DNA from: a virus
IMG/VR virus record: IMGVR_UViG_3300024999_000395
Span: 1 to 23,888 of that record
Strand: one strand, 5' to 3'
DNA length: 23,888 nucleotides
Positions 6,657 through 23,888 of the stretch are shown one piece after another; within the stretch, counting starts at the first letter, position 1; the number at the start of each line of letters is the position of its first letter. The position numbers and the translations under genes are program-made. The notes beneath the pieces are model-generated. The model was given only the letters and a program-made list of their open reading frames with translations, ran no database searches and was not told where the DNA came from.

Positions 6657-8711
6657 CTATCTCAATATTGCACAGTGTAGAATGTTGTCACATTGGTAAT
6701 AAATGTAGATTAAATTATACTCTGAATAAACATGACAACCTCTTATGTTGCCACTTTCGCCAACACCATCAAGATTAAACATTTTTTTTGGTTTGCCTAA
6801 TATGTGTTTAAAATCATCCTTTATTTCAACCATAGCAATATAGGCTTCTTGGGGAGTTTCGCCAGCCACGAACTGCACATAGGTTCCCAATAACCACCAT
6901 TTCCCCTCTCTGTAAATAGGTGTACAGAAATTCCAAGACATGAATCTGTTATTAGTTAATCCTATGAAATTGTCCTCGTTTTCTAATGCTCCGCACCCTA
7001 ACTCATTCAAGTCGGTATACCACTTATAGCCATCTTTACTATAGCTTATACCGTATTTATAGGTGCTATCTATGAGGTGATATGCAAACCACTTATTACC
7101 TACTCTAAACGGATGAAAGTATCCATTATGCCCCTTACCAACTATCTTAGTCACATCGAGAGTCAATGTTTTCGTTTTGTTTGCCCAGTTTATTCCGTCC
7201 ACAGATGTCACAGTCCAAGTTGTTTGTTCCTCACTAACGAATGATGATCTACTGTGGAAATACATTATTAACTTTCCATTAGCTTCATCCCACATTACAG
7301 ACGGTGTTTCAGTTTCCAACCCAACTAATTCCGCATCATAATTTTTATAAACCTGTCCGTAATTAGTAAATGGGCCAAAAGGACTGTTGCTGTGTGCCAT
7401 GCTTATAAAACCGTCTACCCCTGCGTGATCCGTGGAATAAAATAAATAATATTTTCCAAGAGGACTTACTAATTTGTCATCTACTTTAACAAGCCAACAC
7501 CAATAAATATCGGATAATCCACCACCAAATATATTTAGATGCTTTTCTATACTTAATTTAGAAGAACCTCCTGTAAAAGCAAATTGTTGTGGTTGATTGA
7601 TCAATGGAGCATTAAACTTAAAAGTTGGTTTTGTCACGTTACTACTATAAAACCTTGTACTGCCTTGATATGTCCTCATCTCAACTAGTTGTGTGATGGC
7701 TTCCGTTTGTGTAGCAATCTGATGATAAATTGCTATGGGATTACCTGTTAAAAGTGTCCTTAACCCTGCTTGGTCATACGTCGATAATCTGCTTTTCAAT
7801 ATTTGTAAATATATTTGTGTGTTTGCGTTTACTAATACAGATTCCTTTGTGCGATCAAGGGAAGGGTCACTATATGGCATTTTGTCGCAGTAACCAACTT
7901 CACCATGAGTTACGTTTATTGCTGTATTCAATATCCTAAAGGTTACTGTATCCGTGTTAACGGTTACTTGATTGGTAACGACAAGATTGTCGAGAACAAT
8001 TTTTTGTGATTTCCTCAACAATACGTATTGCCCGCCAACTTTTGTGATTGTGTCTACATATCCTGCGAACATTCCTCTAAGTGGTTTTGAAATCGCAATT
8101 GGATTTGAGTAAATAAGACCATTCCCTGTAGAATATAAAGATATGGTGTTATCAGTTTCTCCGACAGAGACTACGGTTGAAGGCGTTTCAAACGATGGAG
8201 AGCTTCCAGTAATGACCGTATTGCCGTAGATTTCTACGCCCTGCGTATAACCATTGGCTGTGTCTACAACTGTGATATCTGTTCCTAACGGGGATGTCAA
8301 GAATAATAATTCGTCTTTTGGGTTAATAACTACAGCTTGTAATGCATCAGTTAATTTAGTTTCATCAACACTTTTGGATGCAATACTTGTGGCTTGATAT
8401 GTCCCTCCAATTACCCATGCAGATCCATTCCAGTAATTCCATTTTCCGTCTGTGGTTAAGTAAGTGTTTGTGTTACCAAGCGGTATCCCTGCTTGCAACA
8501 ATACTAAGGTCGCATAATCGGTTTTCGGAGATCCACTTGCAAGACTTTGAGTTAACACATCGACATAGGTTTTATCAGCTTTTAATGTCACTATTGAATT
8601 AGTGATTTCTAAGCTAGATTGGTCAATTTTTGTATCTAACTGATTCGCAGTTTCTGCCAACTGCGTATTAAATTGTGAAGGAGTTACGACTCCTTGTAAT
8701 GGATTTCCCAT
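6657..8711 (-). CDS. Tail fibre with C-terminal glycosidase-like beta-propeller
   Basis: The 684-residue product opens with a helical, probably trimer-forming stalk (about 1-60, QFNTQLAETANQLDTKIDQ), then a short fibre module with WNYWNGSAWVIGGTY (about 80-130). A beta-rich middle follows (about 130-350). From about 365 to the end, repeated blades of the type GKYYLFYSTD, GKLIMYFHSR, NKWFAYHLIDS, GKWWLLGTYV and LIYIYYQCD alternate with SKDGYKW-like turns, as in the five-bladed propellers of GH43/GH32-type glycosidases. Acidic residues such as D456/E461 and E466/E468 could be catalytic, but I cannot confirm this. The protein probably binds, and perhaps cuts, a host surface glycan. The ribosome site AGGTGA lies in the end of the preceding gene, one base away. 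GC content is higher than in neighbouring tail genes. Confidence 0.7.
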   Translation of the reverse strand: MGNPLQGVVTPSQFNTQLAETANQLDTKIDQSSLEITNSIVTLKADKTYVDVLTQSLASGSPKTDYATLVLLQAGIPLGNTNTYLTTDGKWNYWNGSAWVIGGTYQATSIASKSVDETKLTDALQAVVINPKDELLFLTSPLGTDITVVDTANGYTQGVEIYGNTVITGSSPSFETPSTVVSVGETDNTISLYSTGNGLIYSNPIAISKPLRGMFAGYVDTITKVGGQYVLLRKSQKIVLDNLVVTNQVTVNTDTVTFRILNTAINVTHGEVGYCDKMPYSDPSLDRTKESVLVNANTQIYLQILKSRLSTYDQAGLRTLLTGNPIAIYHQIATQTEAITQLVEMRTYQGSTRFYSSNVTKPTFKFNAPLINQPQQFAFTGGSSKLSIEKHLNIFGGGLSDIYWCWLVKVDDKLVSPLGKYYLFYSTDHAGVDGFISMAHSNSPFGPFTNYGQVYKNYDAELVGLETETPSVMWDEANGKLIMYFHSRSSFVSEEQTTWTVTSVDGINWANKTKTLTLDVTKIVGKGHNGYFHPFRVGNKWFAYHLIDSTYKYGISYSKDGYKWYTDLNELGCGALENEDNFIGLTNNRFMSWNFCTPIYREGKWWLLGTYVQFVAGETPQEAYIAMVEIKDDFKHILGKPKKMFNLDGVGESGNIRGCHVYSEYNLIYIYYQCDNILHCAILR

Positions 8712-8712
8712 A

Positions 8713-9054
8713 CTATATCACCTGCCATTTCACTTGCATTGTTGCTCCAACAGATAATTGTAAATTATAAGTTGAACCAGATAGCAAAGATACATCCCAC
8801 TCATACCATGCACCAGCAACTAAACTTGACCCACTATTTAAAGTTCCAGAAACTCCATCAACAACCAAAGATAAAACTCCTGCTGTATTTGTCATTACTT
8901 GTAAAACTGATTTTTTGTATGCAGTAGATGTATAATTTGATGCCAATATATTGGTATTTGCAAGTACAACTTTATTAGTTTGATTATTCGCTAAATTACC
9001 AGTAACAGTTACTTCTTGAGTAGAATCATTAGTAAAAAATCCATTATTACTCAT
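8713..9054 (-). CDS. Small beta-sandwich tail protein (113 aa)
   Basis: The 113-residue product is made of short beta-strand-like stretches rich in Ser, Thr, Val and Asn, and ends in the repeating pattern SVGATMQVKWQVI. I do not recognise a family. The composition and its place directly before the fibre gene (one base between stop and start, with the fibre's ribosome site inside this gene's last codons) suggest a small baseplate or fibre-anchoring protein made in step with the fibre. AGGAGG lies about 10 bases before the ATG. No cysteine, membrane segment or enzyme motif is seen. It resembles in style, not in clear sequence, the 116-residue protein at 9449-9799. Confidence 0.6.
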   Translation of the reverse strand: MSNNGFFTNDSTQEVTVTGNLANNQTNKVVLANTNILASNYTSTAYKKSVLQVMTNTAGVLSLVVDGVSGTLNSGSSLVAGAWYEWDVSLLSGSTYNLQLSVGATMQVKWQVI

Positions 9055-9094
9055 TATTATTTATTCCTCCTCTAATATTTTATTTAACTATTTA

Positions 9095-9403
9095 TTAATC
9101 CTTGAAAATACCCATATACCAATAATTAATATTTTCTTCAACAATCTTAAATTCGCTTATAACTCTATGAATAGGATTCATCCCTATGTCCATAATAAAT
9201 TCCTTGTTGGCCTTAAAAGGAATTGGATCACTGTCATTGATAATAATTGTACAATCTTGTTTGGCAATAAAATTAAATTTATTTACTACTAAATTTTTAC
9301 CATTTTGATTTAATTTCCATGATTGAATTATTTCTAAATTAGAAGTTGAAATTCCCTCTTTTCCAAAATATTCCGATTTATAGTTGCTGGACAGATTTGA
9401 CAT
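9095..9403 (-). CDS. Small structural tail protein (102 aa)
   Basis: The 102-residue product begins with a polar leader and continues as beta strands: LVVNKFNFIA, CTIIINDSDPIPF and EFIMDIGMN, ending in an aromatic segment NINYWYMGIFKD. The strand, turn, INDSDPIP, strand order fits a small beta-sandwich of the type common at baseplates and fibre joints. No family is recognised. The ATG at 9403 follows AAGGAGG by about 9 bases. It sits in a run of four small genes between the YiiX-like hydrolase and the fibre gene, all on one strand with short gaps, which supports a tail-tip role. Confidence 0.55.
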   Translation of the reverse strand: MSNLSSNYKSEYFGKEGISTSNLEIIQSWKLNQNGKNLVVNKFNFIAKQDCTIIINDSDPIPFKANKEFIMDIGMNPIHRVISEFKIVEENINYWYMGIFKD

Positions 9404-9448
9404 TTTTTATATCCTCCTTTATTTTTTTATTTTAAAATATAATTATAA

Positions 9449-9799
9449 CTAAACTAAATTCTCTTCAATCCCATTTACAAGAATAACAACATCCGTCCCT
9501 ATATCTTGTTTAAATGACATTGATTGACCATTTTCAAGAAAAAATGACAACCCATTCATAATTGTATATGCAACTCCATTAGCAGGGTTGAGATATAATT
9601 TTAATATTTCATTAGATGTTGATGTGCCATTTTTATATATGGTTATAGTTCTACCTAAAGTTCCTCCAGTTTGTAAGTTTAATGTAATCGAAGTAATATA
9701 TTTTCTTACACCTACTGCTCCACTAATTGTACTATCTATAGTTAAAGTTGTTAATGATTTTTGTAACCATTCTTTTGGTGTCATGTCTCCTATTGCCAT
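9449..9799 (-). CDS. Small structural tail protein (116 aa)
   Basis: The 116-residue product starts MAIGDMTPKEWLQKSL (a short helix) and continues as beta strands, with RTITIYKNGTSTSNEILKLYL and ISGAVGVRKYITSITLNL. The repeating pattern of strand, NG turn, strand suits a small beta-sandwich attached to the baseplate. No named family is recognised. The start overlaps the stop of the preceding gene as TAATG, so translation is probably coupled. GGGGTGA lies about 7 bases upstream of the ATG, inside the end of that gene. Its position and fold style match its neighbours at 8713 and 9095. Confidence 0.6.
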   Translation of the reverse strand: MAIGDMTPKEWLQKSLTTLTIDSTISGAVGVRKYITSITLNLQTGGTLGRTITIYKNGTSTSNEILKLYLNPANGVAYTIMNGLSFFLENGQSMSFKQDIGTDVVILVNGIEENLV

Positions 9800-10413
9800 T
9801 AATAATTCACCCCCATTAACGCTTTATATTTTAAATTTAGAAGATTTATTTGTGTTGCAAATGTCCCATCATTTACAAATTCATCAAGAGATTCTTTAGT
9901 TGCCAATGCAATTGCAGTCGAAGATTCTAACTCCGATCTGATATTATTTGCTGTAGAAATCGTAGAGTTTAAACTTGAATTTAATGTACTGCCAGTTGAA
10001 ATAGATGAATTTAAATTTGAAAGAACTGTAGATGCGCTACCGATATTATCTGCTACTTCTTGTAAGTTTTGTGTTGCTTCCCCATCAACAGATTTTGTAT
10101 ATATTCTTTCTGCTGGTATTTCAATAATTCCACGACCTAAAAAATTAGCAGTTACCGTCTTTCCATTTTCTGAAGACGCGAAAGACACAATGCCATTCAA
10201 ATAATTTACATAGAATGTCGTAGCTATTAAACCACTTGATATTTTGGATTCTGCGTATCCAGGTATTGACACTCCTTCAAATTCACTAGGTAACTCAGAT
10301 AAAATTATTTTATTACTAATAATTACAGATGTTGTGGACAAAGATACAAATGGGTCTAATGCACTCCCCTCGCGAAGTTCGTACAAAAGCGGATTATTAA
10401 ATTCAAAAGCCAT
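9799..10413 (-). CDS. Baseplate / fibre-base protein with helical tail (204 aa)
   Basis: The 204-residue product has two parts. Residues about 1-115 are beta-rich and include FYVNYLNGIVSFASSENGKTV followed by LGRGIIEIPAERIY. This YLNGIV / NGKTVTA / GRGIIEIPAERIY pattern recurs at the head of many Firmicute phage fibre or upper baseplate proteins. Residues about 115-200 are helical and rich in Ser, Asn and Leu (NLQEVADNIGSASTVLSNL), probably a trimeric coiled coil. It would connect the tail tip to receptor-binding proteins. The ATG follows AAGGAGG by about 7 bases, and the stop overlaps the next start as TAATG. An 88-base gap, with a tandem 10-mer at 10464-10483, separates it from the YiiX-like gene. 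Confidence 0.65.
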   Translation of the reverse strand: MAFEFNNPLLYELREGSALDPFVSLSTTSVIISNKIILSELPSEFEGVSIPGYAESKISSGLIATTFYVNYLNGIVSFASSENGKTVTANFLGRGIIEIPAERIYTKSVDGEATQNLQEVADNIGSASTVLSNLNSSISTGSTLNSSLNSTISTANNIRSELESSTAIALATKESLDEFVNDGTFATQINLLNLKYKALMGVNY

Positions 10414-10501
10414 TTATTTTCCTCCTTTTTAGACATAGAATTAGAGAGATAAAATTATTACCATAGAATATGTTAGAATATGTTTATTTATTTCCTTATT
10501 T

Positions 10502-10975
10502 CTAATAATTTTCACTAAACCTTAATAATTTACTATTAATTACATCGTCTGGTATTGGAAATCTCTTCTTACTTAATCTTATACCAATTGATGATTTAAA
10601 AATTTTATTAACCAATTCACTACAAATCATTGAAGAATCGTTTATATATGGCAATTTAAGTCTGAACACATACTTTACAAATAGCCATAATAAAAGAAGT
10701 CGGTCATACCTACGACCAACTTCTTTCTTAGCAAAATAAACTATATCCTGTCTTTGCTTATCTGATAGTGAATCACAGGTATAGATAACTGCTTTGCCTC
10801 GATAATCTTCAATATCTCTATATCTTACAAAACCAGATACCCCATCTGACTCAACTATTTGTGTATTAGAAATTATAATCCCAACATGCGAATAATAACT
10901 ATTTGTAATTAAACAAATTGCTTCTGATATTAAAGAATCTTCATCCCGACATGCTAATATATCACCTATTTTCAT
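10502..10975 (-). CDS. YiiX-like permuted NlpC/P60 hydrolase
   Basis: The 157-residue product starts with GDILACRD and holds YSHVGIII with H30, VESDGV with E42, and ICSEL with C118. The order His, Glu, Cys with GDI at the start and CSEL late is that of the circularly permuted papain-like (YiiX/YebB-type) NlpC/P60 family, whose members act as amidases, peptidases or lipid hydrolases. A hydrophobic helix (LLLLWLFVKYVF, about 93-104) lies before the catalytic Cys, as in related proteins. The ribosome site GGTGAT overlaps the end of the preceding gene, with a 4-base gap. Its place among tail-tip genes suggests that it attacks or modifies the cell envelope during infection, but a cytoplasmic role cannot be excluded. 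The presumed catalytic residues are intact; the substrate is unknown. Confidence 0.75.
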   Translation of the reverse strand: MKIGDILACRDEDSLISEAICLITNSYYSHVGIIISNTQIVESDGVSGFVRYRDIEDYRGKAVIYTCDSLSDKQRQDIVYFAKKEVGRRYDRLLLLWLFVKYVFRLKLPYINDSSMICSELVNKIFKSSIGIRLSKKRFPIPDDVINSKLLRFSENY

Positions 10976-10979
10976 ATTA

Positions 10980-11540
10980 TCACCACACTATTGCCTTTAT
11001 TTGTTCTATTGATGTCATTGCTAAAATTTGTTCTTTTAAACTAAAATAACGATATAATTTTGATTCCATGAATAGTTTTCCATCAAGGTAAAGTTGTATG
11101 AATTCTGACCTTGTATGATTCACAATTCCAATATTCTTAGTAGGCCAAGGTATAGAATCCAAAGATGGATCAACACTAATTGCACCAATCATCAGTCCAA
11201 AATTTCGTTGGTATTCTTCATCGAATTTGTAAGAATGTTCTTCACCACTTGCTGAACTTTTAAATCCATTTAAAATCTCTAAATTACACGCTAAATTTAT
11301 TTCTTCTATTTTCGCTTGTTGCATAGATGGCAGTCTAACTGAATCAGGCACATATGTATAATAAGCAGGAATATTATTTTCGATTGTATAATAACTATAT
11401 TTTTTTTTTACGTCTGGATATTCTTCGTCATCTAGATATAGTGGTGTAGTACCTTCTGGGATACTAGTTAATTTTACTTCTGGTGATATTGCACCAACAC
11501 AATATGGGATTTTCCCATCGGAATCATAAAATACATACAT
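10980..11540 (-). CDS. DUF4376-like tail protein
   Basis: The product has 186 residues. The N-terminal part (MYVFYDSDGKIPYCVG, about 1-70) is beta-rich and resembles start regions of phage fibre-assembly proteins. From about 80 onward it is helical with NLACNLEILNGFKSSASGEEHSYKFDEEYQRNF, then PWPTKNIGIVNHTRSEFIQL and a final helix. The features G-x-H-x-Y-x-x-D-x-x-x-Q followed by a W-x-T segment and a terminal helix match DUF4376, found near phage tail tips and fibres; its biochemical role is unknown. GGAAGTGA lies upstream of the ATG at 11540. It is 12 bases after the tail-tip gene and 4 bases before the YiiX-like gene. A role in tail-fibre assembly or attachment is inference. Confidence 0.6.
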   Translation of the reverse strand: MYVFYDSDGKIPYCVGAISPEVKLTSIPEGTTPLYLDDEEYPDVKKKYSYYTIENNIPAYYTYVPDSVRLPSMQQAKIEEINLACNLEILNGFKSSASGEEHSYKFDEEYQRNFGLMIGAISVDPSLDSIPWPTKNIGIVNHTRSEFIQLYLDGKLFMESKLYRYFSLKEQILAMTSIEQIKAIVW

Positions 11541-11552
11541 ATTATCACTTCC

Positions 11553-14500
11553 TTATTTAGTTATAACCACTAAATCAGCCCTATACAATTTTATATTATA
11601 TCCATCTGCAGGTAAAATTGCTACAACTAATTCTGTATTAGCGTCAAGAGAAAATGAAGTTGACCTTAATTTGGTTGGAGTTGTAATAATTGTAGATATA
11701 GACGCCACAACATCAAATCCTACTGCGGGGTTTATTAAATTCACCCATGCTGCATCTGTAGAACTACTTGAACTAAAAATAGCCTCTAACGCAAATAATG
11801 TCCCTGAAGGCCAAGATGGACTTACTTTGTGTAATATATTTGCCGAAGTTAAAGATCCTATATCTGCAGACGTTAAAGTATTTGATCCTATATTAATTGC
11901 TTTATATGCATAAGTAGAACTACTTATATAAGAATTAAAAGCAGGATAATACAATGGAATATATACTTCAGGAGTAGTAATAAATGATGCTATTTTATTC
12001 GATAATGTCATTTTTGCATTATAGTAATTTGTAAAGTTGTTTCTAAAATCTGCACTTACAATTACAGAAGTTGTAGATAAACTTGCCATAAGTGTAGTGG
12101 TATTTGGAGAAATTATAGTTACATTTAGATAATTATTTAAAGCATCATAAGCATTAGTATAATTTGTTTTTTCTGTAGTTATATAATAATAACCTGCTTG
12201 TGTTTCAATTAAAGTCTTTTCTCCAGTAATAATATTCCATTCCTTTTGAACTGTTTGTTTTTCATCAGGAGTAATTTTATTATCGTCTGCTATCTCTGCC
12301 AACAAAGCATTTGTCGCATCAATTTCTGCTTGAACATCTTCGATTGCAGGAGTCCAATCTGTTACTTTATTGCCTAACTCAAATTTTAAATTATCATAAA
12401 AAACACTCCCACTAGACACATCTGTATTAGGCCTCATTATAAACCAAAGGTGGGTTGTGGAGCAATCTGAAGGAACTATAACTGGAAAACTTATTCTAGT
12501 CCAATCAGTGGGGATAGGATTTGATATATTTGCCGAGCCAAAAACTCTAAAACTACCACCACCTTCTACAATAGCAGGAACAGACAATATTGTTTTGTTT
12601 GCTAAATTTGACTTTATATCATAAGACATCATATACATGCCAGCAGGAGGTTTTGTGATGGCAAAAGCATAGTAACGGTCGGCACTTGAAGTCCCATATA
12701 TAGCCAAACTTTTGACGCTGTTATTTCCTGCTTCAAATGTTCCCACCATATTAGCAGTAGGCCACAACGATGCAGTTCCAAGTTCAAAACCACTATCTAA
12801 TAATAAATTCCTTCCACCAATCTTAATATTATCAACACTGTCTTTTTGAGAAGAAGCAATAAAGTTTAATAATACATTTTTTGCACTATAATATGCATTA
12901 AATTTAGTATTAAAATCACTTCTAACAATAATAGATTTTGTTGTCAAATCTACTAAAATTGCAGTTACATTACCTGCAAGGATGGTAGTATTAAGATAGG
13001 TATCTAAATCATCATAAGAGTCAGTATATGCATCATATAATATGGTCATTGTTGCTGATGGATATAATAAAGCCCCCGCATCTAAATTTGTTTTTTCTGT
13101 AACTATATTATCCCATATTGGTTTTAAGATTTTAACTTTTTCGTCTTTAGTTATTCTATTATCATTAGCTATATCTGATAAATTATCTAATGCGGCAGTT
13201 GCATCTTCTTGTGCTTGTTCTGCCAATGCTTTTGCCTGATTTGCAACTGTATCATCAGTATATTTAGATGATTTTACCCAATCAGATAGAGAATAACTAC
13301 TACCTAATGATTTTTTAGTTATACAAATCATTAAATCACCACTTGTACCTTGACTCCATAAATCAGAAATATCATAAGGTGGTGTAGGTACTTGAGTAAA
13401 TATTCTTCGTTTTCCATCTGCTGTGTCTGGAGCAATAGAAGCATTATATAAAGCTGTTACTATATCTGAATCAGTTATTTGAATCCATGAATATTCAGTG
13501 GAAAATGAAAATTCATATGCTAATCCAGATGCAGTATTGTAAAAATAATCACCTAAATGAGCATCTTTTAGAGTAACTTTTGTCCATGCATTTGCAGGAG
13601 AATTTGTTAATGATGGCAAATATCCAGAAAACCAAACTTCAATTTTACCATCCACTTGTGCCTGAAGATCAGCAATTACAGTATCATTAAAATCCATAAT
13701 CTGTTGAGCAGCATTATTATTAGCATTATCTAATTGAACTGTCGATATTTTATTAAGCAAAAGTGATTTTGTACTTTGTACGGCTGAAAAATTTGTTTGA
13801 ATACTAAGTCTTTGATCTGCATTAATAGTAATTGGATATAGTGATAATGCTTGATTAATCCAATTGTTTAATTCATCTTGCAAATTCGTTAAAGCAGTTT
13901 GATAATCAGTTTTTTCAGTTGATATTCCTAATTGTGTAGCTAAATCTATAAATGGTACTGATTCAGCAATAAGTGTATTTAATGACGTTTCTAAATCTAC
14001 TGATTCCTTCTGTGTAATAATCCCATCTAAAGTTACTGAATTTATAGTACCTGCTAATCCTACTATAGATTCAGCTAATCCTGCTACAGCATCCCCAATA
14101 TAATCTCTAGCAACTCCCATGATTGCTGTTAATAGTGCAATTTTAGCATCATAATATGCTTTAAATTTATTTATAAAGGTTGCAGAAACAATTGTAGAAC
14201 TTACGGTTAAATCATATAATATAGGATAAAAATTTGGTGGTGCAATAGAAACATTAAGATAGGTATTTAAGTTAGAATAAGCAGTTTCATAACTTGCTAG
14301 TGTACTTACGATATCTGGATAATTAGAAGTATTATAATAACTTGCTTGTAATTCAACATCTGCTTTTTCATTTACAATTAAATCCCAATATTTTTTTACA
14401 GTTTTCTTTTCTTTTGCTGTAACTGTAGTGTTACTAGCAATATTTGCAATATCAGCATTTGCAATATCTGCTTCAGCTATGGCAGTTTGAACTGCTAATG

Positions 14501-17444
14501 TAGCTTCTGCTGAAATTACGGAGGTTCCAATTGCAATCCCTTGTGGTAATCCATCAATAATTTTAGTATTTATATCTGCATAAGGAGCATTACTAGCACT
14601 GTTTGAAAAGACTTCTAATGCAGAACCCTTAAATAATCCTGGAATTCCGACAAGTGCAAATGGGAATTTACCTGTTCCTGTATCTACCCCAGAACCACCA
14701 CATCTTATTATTGAAGTTAATAAGGTAGAATTCCAACCTATAGAATCATAAGAAGTCAATACGACAATTACTGTATCATCTAATGTATCTAATTTTGTTG
14801 CTAATGCATTCTTGCCTACATTATCAGAATTAAAAGTATCATATAATTGAGTAAATATTATAGATAAATCTTCTCTACTAATTACTGTTAACATTAATCC
14901 TCTACCTGATACACTACTTGCAGAAATAGATTTTTTATTAATTTTTAATATACGAGCAGAATTTCTATTTGCTCCAGTTCCCCTAACAGACATTTCTCCA
15001 TCTATTGAATATTCTGGTGTTTTTAAAGATATTGCATCAAATAATAATTTTTTTGTACTATTAACTAATACAAATTTACCAACTAATGCTTTTTTCTGAG
15101 AACTTGACATTGGTTTAGGATAATCTAATTCTAAAAATCCTACCCATTTATTTAATTCTACCTCTAATCCATCAATTCCACATGATGCAACTGTGCCAGT
15201 TAATGAATTTGTGTAATTAGTAATTAATGCTGTATCAATTTCTAAAGCATTAGCAATATTTATTACATCATTACTTTCAGTCATAATTTTGTTAAATGAA
15301 TTAGTTAATGCAACTGATTCATCGTAAGTAATCTGCTTATCTTTAGCAAAATCAGCAATATTAGTTAACATATTCGCAATAGAAATATTCACTTCTGAAA
15401 CTTGCTCATCTGCATATTCATTAGCATTATTCTCACGGATTATTGCAATTTGATTAATTAATTTTGCTTTTGAATCTTGTACGTCTCGAAATAAAGTAGT
15501 CAAATGTCCTCTTTCGGTTGTAAGCAATGTAATAGGGTATGATGTAGCAGGTTGATCTATCCATTGAAGCAATTCATTTTCAAGATTAGTTAAATCAGTA
15601 TTGTATTTTTCTGTTTCTGTTATGATTCCTAATGATATTGCAATATTTACAAAATCTTCAGATTCAGCTTGCATTTGTTTGAGAGAATTTTTTAGGGCAT
15701 TACTTTCTGATCTGGTAATGTAGCCATCTTGAGAGAATTTATTTACATCAATGTTTAAGTTAGAGAGTGTGCCATTAAGTTCATTTATTTGTTGGTCTAT
15801 GTAGTTTGTGGCATTATTTTCTGATTCATTCCATTTTAGTTTGTTTGTGTCAATTATGTTGACGTAAGAGGATGTATGATATAAAGAGTCAGATAATCTT
15901 TGTGATGCAGTTTTTACATTAGAAATTGTTAATTGAATGTCTGCATTTTCGAAATCAAAATTTATAGAAATTATTTTAGCTGTTAAATCAATTCCTAATT
16001 GTTCATGTTCAATTGCAATTGAATCACCTAAATTTATTTTGTCCCAATTTCTTTGTTCTTCTAGAATTTCCAAGAAATTAACAATGGAAATTTGAATAAC
16101 TGTTTTAGGACTTTTACGGATTTGCATTTCATCTAATCCATAAAGATAAAGGTCTGTAGCAGTTAAAATACTATCATTATTCCAATCCTTGTCTATTTGA
16201 TATGAAGTTTGAAGTTCAGATAATAATTCAGGAGCAAAATATGTTTCTACTGACATAGTAGTTTGAATTTCTGTGATTGATGCTTGAACTCCTGCAATTT
16301 GGACATTTACGGCATCTATTTCAGATTGTTTTGCATCAATTTCTACTTGTTTAGCTACTTTTTCAGCAATTAAAGTAGTTGTACTTTGACCTAAATCTTG
16401 AGCAGTTTTAATATTATCATCAATAATTGCCATTTCATCTGTTAATACAGTCATTTCATTATTTAAAGATGTTAGTGTTATTTGCAATGCTGTCAAATCA
16501 GCTAATAATGTTGCAAATCCATCTGCGTTTTGAGATAATAAAATTTGATAATCTAAAATAGCATGACATAAAGCATCAGTCATGTAATCTGAATGACTGA
16601 TTACTTCTCTAGTAATTTCATCTCTTTGAAATGGGAATAAAAAATATGAATAATCTTCAATATATGACATTCCGTTTGGAGAAATTGAATTTATTGTTAA
16701 TCCATCTTTTCCATAAACTTTTAATCTTGTACAAAAGAATTCGCTATCAATATTTTGTACAATTGTACGGAGGTACTTAATATCAGTTATTCTAAATCCT
16801 TTAGAAACACCATATTCGTTAATTGGATAAAAATTAATCGTTCTATTAATTGAATTAAATTTGGCAATCAAATTAAATTTATCAGCAACTTCTAATATAA
16901 AATCAAATTTTGTTTTTATAGAAACTTCAAATGATCTATAGATCGAAGTATTTTCTATAGGAAATTCACCTAAAGCCCATGCCGTTTCTTTTAGTATCCC
17001 ATCTGTTAAAATCGGAATAGTATCAACATTTCTTGTAAATCCATTCATAACTTCAGACAATAAAACAGCATCTACTTTATAAACTCTCAGATTTTTATCT
17101 CGCAGTTCATATTCTAATGAATAGCAATTTACTTGTAAAAAATCTGTAGAATCATCAGCGTTTGGAGATGGATTATCTATTATGAAAAATGCAATATATT
17201 CACCCAAGACTAATTTAATTAAATATCTGTTTTTAAGCATTGTACAATGAGTATTGTATTGTTGTTCATTATTTTTTTCTATTTGATAAGGAAGATTGAA
17301 TGTTAATTCTGATAATGTTGTGAGATTCATACGTAAATTTGCAGAGCAATGTTCTTTTAATGATGCTATAATCGTTTTGTTTGGTTTGCATAAGTATAAT
17401 TTTGGTTTTTGAGGAGTAAGGGATAAGTCTATGTCTAGGAACAT
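11553..17444 (-). CDS. Large tail-tip / tail spike protein (prophage endopeptidase tail class)
   Basis: The 1963-residue product is the tail-associated (Tal-like) protein following Dit. Residues about 1-310 and 400-515 form the Prophage_tail core, split by a coiled coil (about 312-398). Six helical repeats of about 100-115 residues follow in two types. Type A (about 575-675, 704-806, 1142-1240) starts ITxxES; type B (about 1006-1112, 1428-1535, 1722-1823) starts ITxxEK. Between them sit an ILEI/GG-like domain (about 815-950, RGLMLTVIS, LYDTF, FALVGIPG), a fibre module (about 1258-1400) and a carbohydrate-binding-like domain (about 1541-1700, GGRNLLLDSGFE to KVTDWTPA). The C-terminal 140 residues are beta-rich. 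It should sit at the distal tail end, bind the host wall and open for DNA delivery. No protease active site could be assigned. The ATG follows AAAGGAT. Confidence 0.8.
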   Translation of the reverse strand: MFLDIDLSLTPQKPKLYLCKPNKTIIASLKEHCSANLRMNLTTLSELTFNLPYQIEKNNEQQYNTHCTMLKNRYLIKLVLGEYIAFFIIDNPSPNADDSTDFLQVNCYSLEYELRDKNLRVYKVDAVLLSEVMNGFTRNVDTIPILTDGILKETAWALGEFPIENTSIYRSFEVSIKTKFDFILEVADKFNLIAKFNSINRTINFYPINEYGVSKGFRITDIKYLRTIVQNIDSEFFCTRLKVYGKDGLTINSISPNGMSYIEDYSYFLFPFQRDEITREVISHSDYMTDALCHAILDYQILLSQNADGFATLLADLTALQITLTSLNNEMTVLTDEMAIIDDNIKTAQDLGQSTTTLIAEKVAKQVEIDAKQSEIDAVNVQIAGVQASITEIQTTMSVETYFAPELLSELQTSYQIDKDWNNDSILTATDLYLYGLDEMQIRKSPKTVIQISIVNFLEILEEQRNWDKINLGDSIAIEHEQLGIDLTAKIISINFDFENADIQLTISNVKTASQRLSDSLYHTSSYVNIIDTNKLKWNESENNATNYIDQQINELNGTLSNLNIDVNKFSQDGYITRSESNALKNSLKQMQAESEDFVNIAISLGIITETEKYNTDLTNLENELLQWIDQPATSYPITLLTTERGHLTTLFRDVQDSKAKLINQIAIIRENNANEYADEQVSEVNISIANMLTNIADFAKDKQITYDESVALTNSFNKIMTESNDVINIANALEIDTALITNYTNSLTGTVASCGIDGLEVELNKWVGFLELDYPKPMSSSQKKALVGKFVLVNSTKKLLFDAISLKTPEYSIDGEMSVRGTGANRNSARILKINKKSISASSVSGRGLMLTVISREDLSIIFTQLYDTFNSDNVGKNALATKLDTLDDTVIVVLTSYDSIGWNSTLLTSIIRCGGSGVDTGTGKFPFALVGIPGLFKGSALEVFSNSASNAPYADINTKIIDGLPQGIAIGTSVISAEATLAVQTAIAEADIANADIANIASNTTVTAKEKKTVKKYWDLIVNEKADVELQASYYNTSNYPDIVSTLASYETAYSNLNTYLNVSIAPPNFYPILYDLTVSSTIVSATFINKFKAYYDAKIALLTAIMGVARDYIGDAVAGLAESIVGLAGTINSVTLDGIITQKESVDLETSLNTLIAESVPFIDLATQLGISTEKTDYQTALTNLQDELNNWINQALSLYPITINADQRLSIQTNFSAVQSTKSLLLNKISTVQLDNANNNAAQQIMDFNDTVIADLQAQVDGKIEVWFSGYLPSLTNSPANAWTKVTLKDAHLGDYFYNTASGLAYEFSFSTEYSWIQITDSDIVTALYNASIAPDTADGKRRIFTQVPTPPYDISDLWSQGTSGDLMICITKKSLGSSYSLSDWVKSSKYTDDTVANQAKALAEQAQEDATAALDNLSDIANDNRITKDEKVKILKPIWDNIVTEKTNLDAGALLYPSATMTILYDAYTDSYDDLDTYLNTTILAGNVTAILVDLTTKSIIVRSDFNTKFNAYYSAKNVLLNFIASSQKDSVDNIKIGGRNLLLDSGFELGTASLWPTANMVGTFEAGNNSVKSLAIYGTSSADRYYAFAITKPPAGMYMMSYDIKSNLANKTILSVPAIVEGGGSFRVFGSANISNPIPTDWTRISFPVIVPSDCSTTHLWFIMRPNTDVSSGSVFYDNLKFELGNKVTDWTPAIEDVQAEIDATNALLAEIADDNKITPDEKQTVQKEWNIITGEKTLIETQAGYYYITTEKTNYTNAYDALNNYLNVTIISPNTTTLMASLSTTSVIVSADFRNNFTNYYNAKMTLSNKIASFITTPEVYIPLYYPAFNSYISSSTYAYKAINIGSNTLTSADIGSLTSANILHKVSPSWPSGTLFALEAIFSSSSSTDAAWVNLINPAVGFDVVASISTIITTPTKLRSTSFSLDANTELVVAILPADGYNIKLYRADLVVITK

Positions 17445-17488: not shown

Positions 17489-18301
17489 TTATCTAGTTTT
17501 AAATTGATATCTGAATTGTATTTTACAAGTTCCTTTGATAATTAGGTTGTTGATACCTCTTGGTAAGGAAATAAAATCTCCTGCGAGATTATTTAGACGA
17601 TAAGTGTCAGGAAGTGATGATGTAATTTCTTCATTTTCATTATCAATGAATAAATCTTCATTGTTTTTAAGCGATTCGAATAATGTTGCTCCTTCACTGT
17701 CTAAAATTGATGATAATTTAAATTCTTTTCCTGAATCAGAATTGTTTATTATACTGATATCTCCGTCATTTATTTTGAGAAGTGATATTTGTGGTTGACA
17801 TGGGACGTCTCCGAGATTAGAGAATATTATTGGAGTTCCTGTAGATGGATTAGATGATAGGTCTATCAAATCATCAATATAAACTGGAGAGTATGAATAT
17901 GGAGAATTACATCTAAATTTTAGTGTTACATAACCTAATTTTAAACCATTGTGTATTAATTGTGGTTCATCAACGCAAATGGCATAGAATACTTTATCTG
18001 GATTCTCTGAAAAAATTAATGGACGATATGAATCTTTTGTTAATGCTCTTGCTACAGAACGAAGTTTATCTTCATCAAAGGATTCTGAAAATGCAAAAGA
18101 CATTTGTATTTCCCTTGGAAGTTCTTTTACCTGAACTAAATATGGTTTAGGATTTCTTCTTGTTCTTTGTTCTAAAATTTCTCTGCCTGATAAAAAGGTT
18201 TCTTGATACATCCCTGAGTCTACATGTATGTTCAGGATTCCGTATTCTTCATAGAAATTAATATTGTCATATATAAAATATAATGATTCTGAAATTGACA
18301 A
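17489..18301 (-). CDS. Distal tail protein (Dit, siphovirus tail component)
   Basis: The 270-residue product fits the Dit family, which forms a hexameric ring joining the tail tube to the tail-tip protein. The N-terminal half holds the pattern GILNIHVDSGMYQETFLSGREI, then YLVQVKELPREIQMSFAF, then helix EDKLRSVARALTKDSYRPLIF and FYAICVDEP..YVTLKFRCNSPYSYSP, the usual belt domain. The C-terminal half (about 140-270) is a galectin-like beta-sandwich with GTPIIFSNLGD at its start and RGINNLIIKG near the end. Length is normal for the family. The start is TTG at 18301, with GGAAGGTGA about 7 bases upstream and no better ATG downstream. It lies between the tape measure gene and the tail-tip gene, the standard order. 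Confidence 0.88.
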   Translation of the reverse strand: MSISESLYFIYDNINFYEEYGILNIHVDSGMYQETFLSGREILEQRTRRNPKPYLVQVKELPREIQMSFAFSESFDEDKLRSVARALTKDSYRPLIFSENPDKVFYAICVDEPQLIHNGLKLGYVTLKFRCNSPYSYSPVYIDDLIDLSSNPSTGTPIIFSNLGDVPCQPQISLLKINDGDISIINNSDSGKEFKLSSILDSEGATLFESLKNNEDLFIDNENEEITSSLPDTYRLNNLAGDFISLPRGINNLIIKGTCKIQFRYQFKTR

Positions 18302-18339: not shown

Positions 18340-18363
18340 GAGGAAGAATAAATTATCTTCCTC
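18340..18363 (-). repeat. Hairpin over the tape measure stop codon
   Basis: GAGGAAGA (18340-18347) pairs with TCTTCCTC (18356-18363), and the tape measure stop codon (18353-18355) lies in the 8-base loop. On the minus strand it is followed by TTTCCTTATAAAG, a poor U tract. It could be an mRNA processing or stability hairpin, or a leaky terminator lowering expression of Dit and later genes. About 40 bases separate it from the Dit start. Confidence 0.4.
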
Positions 18364-21300
18364 TAATAATCTGAGCACGCTCAATTTTCTTGATTGTGAA
18401 GTCGGCTGCTCTTTCAAGTTCTTTTCTGCTAATTACCCCATCTGTCGATGTTACATTGAATTCTATTTTTGGAATTGTAACATTTGTTCCAGATGAATTA
18501 TTATTTATAAATTGTGGCATTTTAAATTGTTGTAATGATATATTTGGTAAAACAGATGGTAAATTCTTAATCAAATCCATTAATGATCCATTAATAGCAG
18601 TTCCATTGGCATAAGATGGAATATTTAGGAGTTTAGATTTACTGATTAATTGTTCTGTTAAATTATTAGGTATAATCTTTGTCCCTTCTGGTAAATTTGC
18701 TATTTTAGATCCACTATTATCACCAAGAATTTGTTTTCCTGAAGGAAGAACTAATAATTCTCTGCCAGCATCATCAAATTCTGCAAGTCCTCCAGGATGA
18801 TAATTAGTTCCTGTTGCATTAGAAGGAATTTCAGGAATTTTTCCAGATAATTCTTTAATTTGATTAATAGTTTTTATTATTTTCTTAAAACTATTGTCAA
18901 TTTTAGTTGCACTTTTGGTTAAATCTGCTGTATATCCATCAGAAAATTTCTTTAAAGAAACATTGATATCAGTAATATTTTGATCAATGATTTCTTTTTT
19001 CTTGTTAGCAAAATATTGTTCATCAGCCATCATTGTATTGTAAGCTTCATCTGCTATTTTCTTCTTGTCTTCCGCTATTTTTTTTGCAGAATTATAAGAT
19101 TCATTTTCAGCATTCTTTTTTGCTTCTAATACTTTTTTAATTTCATCTAATTGATCTTGTAAATTTTGTTTACGAAGTTCAATTGTACGATCTGCTTGCA
19201 TATCTTCAATTGAAGAATTTTTCTCATCAATCTGTTTCTGTAATTCTGCTACCCTTGCTCTGCCCTCAGTTGATGTATCGAGAGACAGAGAACTTTTTTC
19301 ACTTTCTAATTTTTGTACATCAGATTGAGCAGAATTTAATGATTTATTATAGTCTTCAGCAGATTTCAATTTATCCATTGCATCAATTTGAGAATTAATT
19401 GAATCTTCATATGCTTTTTCTTCTTTATCAAGATTGTCAAGAACTTTCTGATGTGCAGAATCTAATTTTTTCATTTTTTTCTCATATGCTTCATCATCTA
19501 GTTTTTTCTGATCTTCATAATATTGTTTTAGAAGAGCAATTGCTTCATCTGCTTGGGATGATTGGATATCTAGGAGGGATTGTTTTAGGGATTTAGATGA
19601 TTCGGCATTTTCATCCATTGCAGATTTATTAGACATCCATGCGTTACGAAGTAATTGGAGAGATTTGAATGTTTCATCCATTATTTTTCTAGTGGATTCT
19701 GATGCTTTATTTTTTTCTTCTATGAAAGTTGCTGATTCTTGATTGTCATTTCCAACAAACCAACGTGAAGTATCCCCAAATTGAGATGATGCAGTTGAAA
19801 TAGCAGAATCTTTAAGCTGATTTATTTTTGAACGAGCTGTAGAGAGTAATTCTGTCTCTTTAATTTGCGAAGCGATTAAAGAATTAGTAAGTTCGATAGT
19901 TTTTGCATAATCTTTTTGTGATTGTGCTTGAGAGAGGTCTTTTTGGATTGAATCTGATTTAGCTTTTTGGAGGAGATATTCTTGTTGGATTTGATTGATT
20001 AGGGCTTGGGTTGTGGATTCTATTGAGAGGGGTTTTTCTTCTTTTTCTTTTTTATTGTCGCTTTTAGACATGCCAAGTTTAGAAAAATCAATGCTTTTTG
20101 TTCCATTCATTGCAATATCATCAAATTTCTTCTTAACTTCTAAAGAAGCATCATAATACGCCTTAAGTTGTGCTCTCATTTCAGGAGTAATATAGGTTTC
20201 CTTACCATCTTGACCTACAATAGTTCTTCCACCATCAATAATATTAGCCTTAGTCATATTACCTTGGGCATCATAATATTGTGACCACATTCCTGCCAAG
20301 TTCTTCATTAGTTCGTTTTCAACTTTTAATTTTGCTTCAGCCAATGATTTTGCTCCAGATAAATCGACTTCGCGAGCACCATCTAATCCAGCAACAAATT
20401 TTTGTATACCTTCAATATTTTTATTATAGAAATCAACACTTCCATTGAGCATGGTAATATATGCTTGTCTGGATTTTTCTTGCTCTTGTTCTATAATGTT
20501 TGTTAATTCTTGATGAACTGCTTTTTCATCGCCAAGGATTCCTATTAGGCTTTCATGTTTATCAGCAAGTTTTACCAGAGTGTCAAGAGAAAAAGCTTTA
20601 TTCTCTGCGTATTCATCGAGAGCAGATTGAATTTCGGTAATTGCAGATGAGGAAGTGGATAGGGTTTTTTGGAGAGTAGCAAAAGATTGTGCTGTAGAAT
20701 CTATCCCATCTTTAACTTTGGGAGTAACATTTCCTAATAAAATAAAAGATTGTGCAATCGAATCAACTATTTCTGGTTTTAATTCAGGATTAGATTTTTT
20801 TAGTGATTCAGTTAAATCATCAATTGTCTTCTTATGTAACTTTTCAACTTCAACAGCTTCGATAGATCCTTCTTTATATTTATTTTGAGCATCAGTCCAA
20901 TTCTTAAAGACATTTTGTATATCAGAATCTTTCTTTATTGACTCAAATATTCCTCTTAAAGCAACAGATGGATCATTACCATTATTTTTTAACACTTCTA
21001 CTAAAGATAAATAATTATCTGAAAAAGTATTTATGACATCGTTAGATAGTTTTAATGACTCCAACTCATATTTTACGGTTGATGTTAATCCTTGGTCATA
21101 AGTTGATTTAACTTCATTTAATTTACTCTGAGTGGTAGAAATCTTTTCACTTACTTCATCAAATTTTTCATACCATCCGACTAAGTAAGATTCTTTCACA
21201 TCTTCAGACATACCATCATTAGTTTTGACATTATCTATATTGCTTTGTATATCATTTTGTTCTTTCTTTAAATTATTTAATTCTGTTTGGGAAACAACCA

Positions 21301-23888
21301 TTGACTGTATCCAAGTTGATTGATTTTGATAAAATTGAGAAGAAAGACGATTAGTTTCTAAATCTATTTCTTCTTTCTTTAAATTATTTAATTCTGTTTG
21401 GGAAACAACCATTGACTGTATCCAAGTTGATTGATTTTGATAAAATTGAGAAGAAAGACGATTAGTTTCCAAATCTATTTCTTCTTTCTTTTTATCAAGT
21501 AAATTACTCAATTTTGAATCAACATTTATAATTGCTTGACCTTCCAATGTATAACCACTCACAAGATTCGGGAAAAGTTGAGCAAGTTGTTGTTGTATCT
21601 CAATTATTTTCTGTTTTTGATCGACTGTTTTATCTGCAACCCCAGATAATTTATTATAGGCACTAACTAATTCATTTGCTTTTGCATAATCTGAACTAAG
21701 ACCACCTAAATTATCTAATATATCTTTAAATGCTCTTGCTTGATCTTCCATAGTATCTTTAGATTTACCTAGTGATTCCATTAACTTTTGAACTAATGTT
21801 ATTACGCCAGTGATAGCTAAACTTAACCCTAAAGTCATGGTTGTTTGTAGTGCAATTACAGAAACTCTTGTACTCGTTAATCCGGTTCTTAAAAATGCCA
21901 ATGCTCCTGAAAATCCTCTAACTCCACCAGTAGCGGTTAACCATAAAGCAGGAATTGAACGTAATAAACCATATTGTTCAACTTTTAATCTTATAGTTTC
22001 ATAAACAGATGTTCTAAGAGCACTAGAGAATACCAATACCGCAGTTGTGGATGCTCCTGCTAACGCTGGTAAACCTCCAAAAATAGAAGACACACCATTT
22101 AATCCACTAACAATACCACTAAGAACACCTATACCACCTTTGAGTAAATCAGAAGAGAAAAATAATTTATAAAGTTCCTCAAGACTTACACGAAATTGTT
22201 TAACCTTTGCCTCGACAGAGGTTAAGTATACTTCGTTTTCCTTTGCACTAGACCCTACGGAAGTTAACGCATCTCCCATAGTTTTTTCCGCTTCCGAAAA
22301 ATTTTGAAGGGTGGCTGCCAAAACATTTGCTTGGTATTTCCCTCCCATATCTTCCAGAAGTTTACTTCTACTCATGTCGTCCATGCCCATATAGACTTTT
22401 GAAAAATCCTTAAGTATATTATAGGTACTTCTAAAGCCTCCATCAACATTTCTTATTTGGACTCCAACAGCATTCAAATCTGCTTCTAATTTTGGAAATA
22501 CATCTTTTGATTCTTCATCTACACCTCTAAGTCTAAGTGCTAAAGTTTTAAATCCATTTCCGACTTTTTCTGGATTTTGAACCACAGCATTTGCAGCAGT
22601 TAAAAGTGCAGTTGTTTCTTCGATTGTATTTCCTGCTTGTGCCATGACCGCAGAAGATCGTTCGTATGCACTTCCTAGCCCATCTACAGAAATACTGTGT
22701 TTATTCGACACTTCATTCATAATATCGATTACTTTCGAGCTTTCACTTACTTGAAGATCAAAACCTTTTAATGTTGAAATTAAATATTGTGTTGCTTTAT
22801 CAACATTTTCAATATCTCCTACGTTTTGCATAATTAAAGCTTCTTTTGCAAGCTCTTTTGCTTCCCTTAATGTATAACCCATTTTTGCAAAATTCGTAGT
22901 GGCTTTTATTACTTCAATAGTTGTTCTAGCAAGAGTTTTACCTAAATTAGAAGAATCATTTTCAAATTCTTTATATGCCATATCTGTTTCATTAGTAACC
23001 TTTTTTAGATTAATCATGGCAAAATCTAAATCCTTGATAAAAACCACTGCGGATTTTATTTGGGAAATAGTTCCAAAAATTAAATTTCCCATCCCAAGCC
23101 ACGTAAGCATTTTAAAAGCTACAAGTTTTAAACTTTCTCCTAGAGACATCGCATTTCTATTTACGGTATTTATCCCATTGGCAATGGCAGTTGTATTTAA
23201 TGCATTAAACTCTGCTCTTAATAATCCTACATTTCTTCTTAAATTTTCTGTTGTTGGAGTTAATTGATTTAATCTAGTTCTTAGATTATTTAATTCATCA
23301 ACATTGTACAATCCGGTTCTTTGAGTTTCAAACCTACTCATTGAAGAGTTTAAATTCATTTGTTGAATTCTAAGATAATGTTGTAAAGATTCAGCATTAT
23401 TTTGTATTTGAGCATTTAATCTTTGACGCAATTGTAATTCTCTTTCAATATTTGTACTAGATGAATCACTATTGCGCATGTTTACCCTTGAAAGTCTTTG
23501 ATTTAGTTCATCCCATTGCAGCGCGTATCTTTTAATAACTCCACTAGCAGTTTCGACTTTTAAATTTACTTTACCGAATTCATCATATACAACAGAAGTT
23601 TGCCCTTTAAACTTTTGAAACGTAGAAACTAAATTGTTTACTGTGTTAATATATTTTTGAGCACCTTGATTTGGATTATCAAGATTAAACATTGGTGCTT
23701 TTATTGCATTAAGTTCTTTTGCGGCAGATTTAGAAAGTTGACTTAATCTTTCTAACCCCTTCAATGTAGCTTCGTTTAAGTTAAGATTTATTTTTAGATT
23801 ATGGTTCTTAGTTATGTAATTTTGTATTGCATTAATTTGACTTGTTAACTCTTGTGGAGTCCAAGTTAATTTTATACCTATCCCAAAC
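18353..23888 (-). CDS. Tape measure protein (5' end outside the window)
   Basis: The frame is open from the window edge to the stop at 18353, giving at least 1844 residues; the true start lies beyond 23888. The first internal TTG (23764) has no reason to be the start, because the reading frame continues upstream with good protein (FGIGIKLTWTPQELTSQIN). Residues about 280-540 of the visible part form the TP901-type tape measure domain (NFAKMGYTLREAKELAKEAL, GLGSAYERSSAVMAQAG, NGFKTLALRLRG). Two hydrophobic zones (about 580-625 and 675-705) may enter the host membrane. Long coiled-coil regions follow to about 1640, then a C-terminal part with ATGTNYHPGGLAEF typical of the family. The protein sets tail length and leaves with the DNA. 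An in-frame 111-bp duplication lies at 21260-21481. Dit follows 51 bases downstream. Confidence 0.9.
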   Translation of the reverse strand, partial: FGIGIKLTWTPQELTSQINAIQNYITKNHNLKINLNLNEATLKGLERLSQLSKSAAKELNAIKAPMFNLDNPNQGAQKYINTVNNLVSTFQKFKGQTSVVYDEFGKVNLKVETASGVIKRYALQWDELNQRLSRVNMRNSDSSSTNIERELQLRQRLNAQIQNNAESLQHYLRIQQMNLNSSMSRFETQRTGLYNVDELNNLRTRLNQLTPTTENLRRNVGLLRAEFNALNTTAIANGINTVNRNAMSLGESLKLVAFKMLTWLGMGNLIFGTISQIKSAVVFIKDLDFAMINLKKVTNETDMAYKEFENDSSNLGKTLARTTIEVIKATTNFAKMGYTLREAKELAKEALIMQNVGDIENVDKATQYLISTLKGFDLQVSESSKVIDIMNEVSNKHSISVDGLGSAYERSSAVMAQAGNTIEETTALLTAANAVVQNPEKVGNGFKTLALRLRGVDEESKDVFPKLEADLNAVGVQIRNVDGGFRSTYNILKDFSKVYMGMDDMSRSKLLEDMGGKYQANVLAATLQNFSEAEKTMGDALTSVGSSAKENEVYLTSVEAKVKQFRVSLEELYKLFFSSDLLKGGIGVLSGIVSGLNGVSSIFGGLPALAGASTTAVLVFSSALRTSVYETIRLKVEQYGLLRSIPALWLTATGGVRGFSGALAFLRTGLTSTRVSVIALQTTMTLGLSLAITGVITLVQKLMESLGKSKDTMEDQARAFKDILDNLGGLSSDYAKANELVSAYNKLSGVADKTVDQKQKIIEIQQQLAQLFPNLVSGYTLEGQAIINVDSKLSNLLDKKKEEIDLETNRLSSQFYQNQSTWIQSMVVSQTELNNLKKEEIDLETNRLSSQFYQNQSTWIQSMVVSQTELNNLKKEQNDIQSNIDNVKTNDGMSEDVKESYLVGWYEKFDEVSEKISTTQSKLNEVKSTYDQGLTSTVKYELESLKLSNDVINTFSDNYLSLVEVLKNNGNDPSVALRGIFESIKKDSDIQNVFKNWTDAQNKYKEGSIEAVEVEKLHKKTIDDLTESLKKSNPELKPEIVDSIAQSFILLGNVTPKVKDGIDSTAQSFATLQKTLSTSSSAITEIQSALDEYAENKAFSLDTLVKLADKHESLIGILGDEKAVHQELTNIIEQEQEKSRQAYITMLNGSVDFYNKNIEGIQKFVAGLDGAREVDLSGAKSLAEAKLKVENELMKNLAGMWSQYYDAQGNMTKANIIDGGRTIVGQDGKETYITPEMRAQLKAYYDASLEVKKKFDDIAMNGTKSIDFSKLGMSKSDNKKEKEEKPLSIESTTQALINQIQQEYLLQKAKSDSIQKDLSQAQSQKDYAKTIELTNSLIASQIKETELLSTARSKINQLKDSAISTASSQFGDTSRWFVGNDNQESATFIEEKNKASESTRKIMDETFKSLQLLRNAWMSNKSAMDENAESSKSLKQSLLDIQSSQADEAIALLKQYYEDQKKLDDEAYEKKMKKLDSAHQKVLDNLDKEEKAYEDSINSQIDAMDKLKSAEDYNKSLNSAQSDVQKLESEKSSLSLDTSTEGRARVAELQKQIDEKNSSIEDMQADRTIELRKQNLQDQLDEIKKVLEAKKNAENESYNSAKKIAEDKKKIADEAYNTMMADEQYFANKKKEIIDQNITDINVSLKKFSDGYTADLTKSATKIDNSFKKIIKTINQIKELSGKIPEIPSNATGTNYHPGGLAEFDDAGRELLVLPSGKQILGDNSGSKIANLPEGTKIIPNNLTEQLISKSKLLNIPSYANGTAINGSLMDLIKNLPSVLPNISLQQFKMPQFINNNSSGTNVTIPKIEFNVTSTDGVISRKELERAADFTIKKIERAQIIRGR
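21260..21481 (-). repeat. In-frame 111-bp tandem duplication in the tape measure gene
   Basis: The segments 21260-21370 and 21371-21481 are the same 111 bases except for one change (a TTA versus TTG leucine codon), giving two identical 37-residue blocks that include EIDLETNRLSSQF and NQSTWIQSMVVSQTELNN. The boundaries carry the 10-base pyrimidine motif TTCTTTCTTT at 21260, 21371 and 21482, which could have served as the slippage or recombination homology. The silent difference argues against a simple assembly stutter. The frame is kept throughout. Confidence 0.95.

Follow-up and report, generated by a model that had tools for sequence, protein, structure and literature searches.

The tail-tip (Tal) protein analyzed here probably carries a modular adhesion arm, in which rigid helical spacers hold a series of beta domains. 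Its open reading frame of 1963 amino acids runs uninterrupted at 11553-17444 (minus strand) of a 23,888-base virus stretch, referred to as the window, and by its sequence matches the product is a siphophage Tal protein of the YomG/Prophage_tail kind. Tail tips decide host adsorption, yet most of the length of such giant proteins is without a domain name. Six stretches of this arm can now be identified as one homologous bundle in two types, A and B. The bundle family connects siphophage Tal proteins with the long tail fibres of myophages, and the bundle spacing offers a testable explanation for an adaptive duplication published for an Enterococcus phage. In the proposed mechanism, the N-terminal hub would close the tail tube, as in other Tal proteins. 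Four-helix bundles of the restricted type A and the widespread type B would serve as rigid spacers in the long C-terminal arm, joined directly via common helices or parted by beta domains. The beta domains are probable binders of host glycans. The bundles would set the reach of the arm and the presentation of these domains, and selection on adsorption would drive the variation of the arm.

The preliminary description of this DNA named the product a tail-tip protein, and this was borne out by the domain matches and the gene neighbours. The hub (15816-17444, minus strand) matched YOMG_N (PF24049) with 85.9 bits and Prophage_tail (PF06605) with 50.2 bits, both above the curated Pfam cut-offs of 27 and 31.3, respectively. 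Similarly, residues 1-560 matched the minor tail protein family phrog_6211. The gene order is tape measure, Dit, and Tal, with Tal directly after both. The Dit (distal tail protein) gene directly upstream (17489-18301, minus strand) was identified by TIGR01633 (34.7 bits) and by the Dit family phrog_33 (E 4e-30), and the tape-measure gene (18353-23887, minus strand; PF10145 and TIGR01760) continues past the end of the window. No PDB sequence matched the whole Tal protein at E<=1.

Several other genes were observed in the window. A permuted papain-like protein of the C92/YiiX type is encoded in the tail module at 10502-10975 (minus strand; PF05708, 35.3 bits, cut-off 27), two genes after Tal with a DUF4376 protein in between. 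A tail-fibre-like protein at 6657-8711 (minus strand) contains a GH43-like stretch (23.3 bits, under the cut-off of 32.2), which is possibly a glycan-binding or depolymerase part. Two homing-endonuclease-like genes, at 1686-3209 and 5154-5918 (minus strand; HNH/DUF4379 and GIY-YIG), flank an amidase endolysin gene at 4100-4957.

Self-comparison of the Tal protein resolved six units of about 130 amino acids in the order A-A-B-A-B-B, as the preliminary description had read them. All lie on the minus strand: A1 at 15417-15815, A2 at 15000-15428, B1 at 14097-14519, A3 at 13716-14114, B2 at 12834-13250, and B3 at 11970-12371. Identity is 34-39% between A units, 35-41% between B units, and 16-18% between A and B. 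Self-matches between units of one type had E values down to 1e-20 to 1e-27 (BLAST against the single Tal protein), which excludes chance as the source of the repeats. Of the motifs that had been proposed, each of the three A units has the ITxxES start exactly as given, and each of the three B units has both YLN and FxxYYxAK. The ITxxEK start of type B holds for two of the three units, B1 reading VTAKEK instead. The turn of type A had been given as WI/WV-x-x-YP; the actual pattern is W[IV], six residues, and YP (WIDQPATSYP, WVGFLELDYP, and WINQALSLYP). The near-invariant motifs are E/S and W in type A, and EK and Y/F in type B. An EF-hand, considered on account of the D-G-x-I-T-x-x-E turn of the units, was rejected, as it was absent from the listed Pfam matches up to E 1 of the whole protein and of the B units.

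The inserted domains that had been noted between the units were found after A2, A3, B2, and B3. The first, D0 (14520-14999, minus strand), is an ILEI/GG-like beta domain that scored 23.1 bits with PF15711, under the cut-off of 27; the same domain in the relative L004 scored 28.1 bits, over the cut-off, and D0 is present in all 14 segmented proteins. The second, D2 (13251-13715, minus strand; IEVWFSGY...PTPPYDISDLW), had no Pfam or PDB match. When profiles of D0 and D2 were compared with solved structures, the matches were weak and all to proteins without a relation to them. The insert at 12372-12833 (minus strand) is, by its sequence, a carbohydrate-binding-like domain beginning with IGGRNLL, without a significant Pfam match; the GGRNLL start is shared with an insert in the same place of L013, and a GTRNLL CBM_4_9-like domain likewise comes after a B unit in the phages EFP01 and EfV12-phi1. 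The C-terminal tip domain (11556-11969, minus strand; YIPLYYPAFNSY...) is related to the tips of L010 and L013, and partly to those of L007, L008, and L011. Because D2 and the tip match no known family, we can only infer a glycan-binding role. The distal domains vary among the relatives: D2 occurs twice in L002 and L006, the GGRNLL domain is found in the window and L013, the tips are different, and KASYxHI/collagen-like stretches are present in L004, L005, and L007-L011.

The two types are distributed differently. In a search of 50,697 phage records with B3 (E<=0.01), 90 records matched, of which 69 are from Enterococcus phages, and type B is, on these sequence matches, widespread in phage tail fibres. 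None of the same records was matched by A1, A2, or A3 (single-sequence tblastn, with E limits of 0.1, 0.1, and 0.01). Beyond the window, 23 virus contigs carry type A, 21 with a related arm and two in other contexts. Similarly, phrog_38044 was matched by 29 of 29 B units and phrog_21973 by 3 of 46 A units. Profile scans of bacterial genome contigs with the D0-B1-A4 and A1 alignments returned no relatives, and 15 of 72,556 plasmid records were matched, mostly via the hub. No dedicated Pfam model for type B was found. The GA-like domain GA_3 (PF22775) was considered and rejected: its lowest E value of 2e-4 was the best of any Pfam model on the 29 B units, but only 5 of these had a GA_3 match at E<=1, and its best score in outside fibres was 26.5 bits over 42 residues, under the cut-off of 27. 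The sole Pfam model above its cut-off on outside-fibre B units was Alanine_zipper (25.8 bits, cut-off 23.1), which spans the boundary between units 5 and 6 in EFP01.

Individual occurrences were observed outside the related arms. L070 encodes three tandem A units (7552-12183) in a 1544-residue protein without a Pfam match, and L071 has a 352-residue frame with a single A unit (8515-9570). The scan of viral contigs for B units gave at least one locus. The Oceanotoga phage vB_OteS-UFV02 carries four B units almost end to end; its host belongs to the phylum Thermotogota, and these units show the wide reach of the B module.

The relationship between the two types was determined by profile comparison and phylogenetic analysis. 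The A profile (46 units) aligned with the B profile (29 units) over 106 columns with E 3.3e-7 and a score of 45.5. None of 180 column-block shuffles scored above 23.3, and the reversed B profile scored 13.6. When type A was compared with 54 independent B units from named phages, the score was 48.2 (E 1e-7); here the controls did not exceed 27.5 (60 shuffles) and 18.4 (25 tape-measure pieces). Scores of the A profile with single B units are often weak (median 21, lowest 11-14), and because many single-sequence comparisons are weak, the homology claim rests on the profiles. The B units of this family and those outside it are closely related as profiles (E 7e-37). The two types split with a support of 100/100 in a tree built from 75 units. 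When the outside B units were included, all A units came together at the end of a long branch (SH-aLRT 100), and the family B units fell among those of Enterococcus, Acinetobacter, and Elizabethkingia phages. The split is called ancient because the Tal B units nest among the B units of outside phages. These comparisons argue that A and B are distantly homologous, as two ancient types of one module. As the tree is unrooted, we infer that type A is a divergent offshoot of the widespread B module.

The predicted structures are in agreement with the profiles. In the AlphaFold2 model of B1-A3 (9 sequences, pLDDT 81.9, pTM 0.59), both units are folded alike as helix, short bridge, two helices, short bridge, and helix. 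B2 modelled alone (29 sequences) reached pLDDT 90.5 and pTM 0.85 with the same elements. Four helices and two short bridges were thus predicted for each of the three units, and several of the unit motifs sit at the helix starts and short bridges of the models. A continuous helix of 54 residues (model residues 118-171; 14025-14186, minus strand) is common to B1 and A3, and adjoining units are predicted to be joined via one such long helix. With a pTM of 0.59 for the two-unit model, the geometry of the rod is unsure and the arrangement between units of only moderate confidence.

The A and B folds were compared through common PDB neighbours, both aligning to the same four-helix bundles. With VIA-align, TLNRD1 (6xz3) aligned with the A3 part at Z 10.8 (rmsd 2.7, 111 residues) and with B2 at Z 10.9 (rmsd 2.8, 115 residues). 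The best Foldseek E value was 0.044, to bundles of the vinculin, alpha-catenin, FAT, and TLNRD1 type. The models resemble these tandem bundles in having two bundles with a common long central helix; however, no sequence relation to them was found, and Z values of about 11 to vinculin/alpha-catenin-like bundles are within the range of the tool for common helical arrangements. The likeness to alpha-catenin, FAT, and TLNRD1 is probably that of a common arrangement only. Unit profiles searched against solved structures gave nothing beyond weak matches to unrelated proteins. Among viral models in BFVD, 23 matched B2 at E<=0.001, and among those with names, tail and structural proteins predominate, from phages of Enterococcus, Fusobacterium, Acinetobacter, Bacillus, Lactococcus, and Lactobacillus. 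The earlier view that the units are one fold split into two types is therefore supported by profile homology, the element order of the models, common PDB neighbours, and the tree.

Arms with other numbers of units were found among the relatives. The complete frames contain four units (L007, L008, L011, and L030), six (the window, L003, and L010), or seven (L004, L005, L006, L009, L013, and L024), and L002, whose frame ends at the contig edge, has at least eight. Of the 22 proteins in which the first A block is in view, 20 have three A units before the first insert, and the window and L001 have two; each contig was counted once, the window included, and two of the A blocks end at a contig edge. 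In the tree, units cluster by position across phages and not by protein, which indicates that the unit order is conserved. In the window, A1 clusters with position A1 of the relatives, A2 with position A3 (a set of 13, support 98/99), and A3 with position A4; the window thus lacks the middle A unit. The single B unit of L007 and L008 groups with position B2, as though B1-A4-D2 were missing. L007, L008, L011, and L030 have an A-A-A-D0-B arm attached to another kind of hub, which is shorter and about 20-26% identical to the hubs of the other proteins, as though the entire arm had passed from one tail type to another.

Blocks also differ in their relationships. Protein identity between L002 and L062 is 95% for the hub and 96% for D0 and B1, but 58, 42, and 51% for A1, A2, and A3, respectively. 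At the DNA level, the hub is 82-100% identical across 17 segments, 13 of them at 91% or more; identity is then 78% at residue 568 and 59-71% over residues 601-967, and it rises again to 87% and 93-100%. All three A units seem to have been exchanged between near-identical flanks or, less probably, the block is a chimeric assembly. L010 and L028 show the reverse, with different hubs (52%) and closely similar arms after about residue 567. For the pairs L010-L028, L005-L010, and L009-L010, identity is 51-53% in the hub, 83-98% from A2 to D2, 60-87% in A1, and 62-89% in B2. Across 19 proteins, hub identity was poorly correlated with the identity of B1, A4, and D2 (Spearman 0.15, 0.05, and 0.0, respectively).

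These data qualify the earlier proposal of a modular arm changing its length and binding domains by shuffling. Unit number and distal domains do differ, while the changes in physical length and binding are our reading of them. Units are lost and gained, blocks are exchanged at the same position, and distal domains are swapped, but the order is conserved and the units are bound to their positions. The variation of the arm is constrained in position rather than freely shuffled.

Three other explanations were weighed. The A blocks of L002 and L062 might be assembly chimeras, so that the arm does not really exchange blocks. All of these sequences are metagenome contigs from few related data sets, and no intact donor was found for the A block of L062. 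Several pairs, however, break at the hub/A1 edge and come from more than one data set, and differences in unit number occur in named Enterococcus phages as well, which makes this explanation quite unlikely. Still less credible is that A and B are unrelated bundles, alike solely through their common helical composition. The pairwise identity is low and many single-sequence comparisons are near noise, as such an origin would have it, but the profile scores stand well above the best of both sets of shuffled controls, the alignment is co-linear across all its columns and repeated with the independent B set, and the predicted folds have an identical element order. This explanation is considered highly improbable.

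The function of the bundles is a further question, as the helical units could bind proteins or glycans, or act as an attachment trigger that unlocks the tail, rather than serve as spacers. Their position-specific conservation and their near-invariant motifs, needless in a pure spacer, point in this direction. The structural neighbours include FAT and vinculin head four-helix bundles, which are binding and force-responding domains. However, the motifs may serve folding, given their places in the models; the units are flanked by more typical binding domains, and their number varies from 3 to 6 in Enterococcus fibres. A binding or signalling role is considered rather unlikely, and the units are read as spacers.

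The hub matches and the tape measure-Dit-Tal order resemble the SPbeta-like YomG/Prophage_tail Tal proteins (PF24049, PF06605), whose relatives in Bacillus phages FADO and BcoS-136 and Brevibacillus phage Sundance carry B units. Unlike these, an arm of two to four A units together with B units was seen only in metagenomic contigs. The Staphylococcus SPbeta-like PhiSepi-HH3 had only weak A-like matches, of 21 and 12 bits. In lactococcal P335 phages (PMC9692632), the Tal extension is likewise built of a repeated domain with CBM domains: the "3-beta" domain occurs ten times in BK5-T and once in C41431, with predicted Tal lengths of 140 nm and 45 nm. The repeat here differs, being a predicted four-helix bundle in two paralogous types, and a BK5-T-type 3-beta repeat was ruled out by the four-helix models of A3, B1, and B2. 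The repeat-extended Tal was thus known, and the candidate novelty is the four-helix module in two types; no paper describing it was found in the open-licence PubMed Central literature.

The long tail fibres of Enterococcus Herelleviridae (phiEF24C ORF31, EFP01, Porthos, and EfV12-phi1) also carry B units. These phages differ in their contractile tails, in a fibre without fusion to the YomG hub, and in having no A units that were found. Among nine Enterococcus phages, the fibre contains three B units in phiEF24C, Revolver, and phage 113, four in EfV12-phi1, iF6, and EA1, five in 21C1, and six in EFP01 and Porthos. The GTRNLL CBM-like domain follows a B unit in both fibres that were checked (EFP01 and EfV12-phi1). 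A point mutant of phiEF24C ORF31, a long tail-fibre component, is reported to adsorb better (PMC3201976); the mutation, E1287K, maps outside the three B units.

In the EfV12-phi1 fibre EFV12PHI1_98, in-frame tandem duplications of 1.8 kb are reported for all four coevolved replicates and for no controls; the authors describe no conserved domain within the duplication and leave the mechanism unexplained (PMC6365445). Units 3 and 4 of the four B units in this fibre are spaced by 622 amino acids (1866 bp), and the GTRNLL domain comes after unit 4. Under 5 of 8 readings of the published constraints (two stated CBM distances, 400 bp and about 100 nt, with two CBM starts and two lengths), both ends of the duplication fall in units 3 and 4. 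Random placement containing R1460 puts both ends in B units in 17-20% of cases, so the agreement between the duplication period and the spacing of units 3 and 4 is suggestive only. No exact 12-mer repeats were found in the fibre at an offset of 1.65-1.95 kb. A 9-base in-frame repeat at offset 1866 is present in units 3 and 4, but repeats of 9 and 10 bases are also seen at further offsets. Ordinary homologous recombination between the two units is doubtful because their DNA identity is just 61.6%.

A broader and more tentative proposal is that the B/A bundle is a general "arm-length" module of phages of Gram-positive and Gram-negative hosts, with cassettes being added, deleted, and exchanged, and that the EfV12-phi1 duplications reflect the same process. 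If so, bundle-plus-domain cassettes would tune the reach of the arm or the number of adhesive domains presented, and the 1.8-kb duplications would be arm-length adjustment caught in the laboratory.

In the EFP01 fibre (residues 1473-1887), three adjoining B units are found where EfV12-phi1 has one. Their mutual DNA identity is 74-76%, and on these sequences the triple, which directly precedes the CBM-like domain, is read as a tandem amplification that arose in nature.
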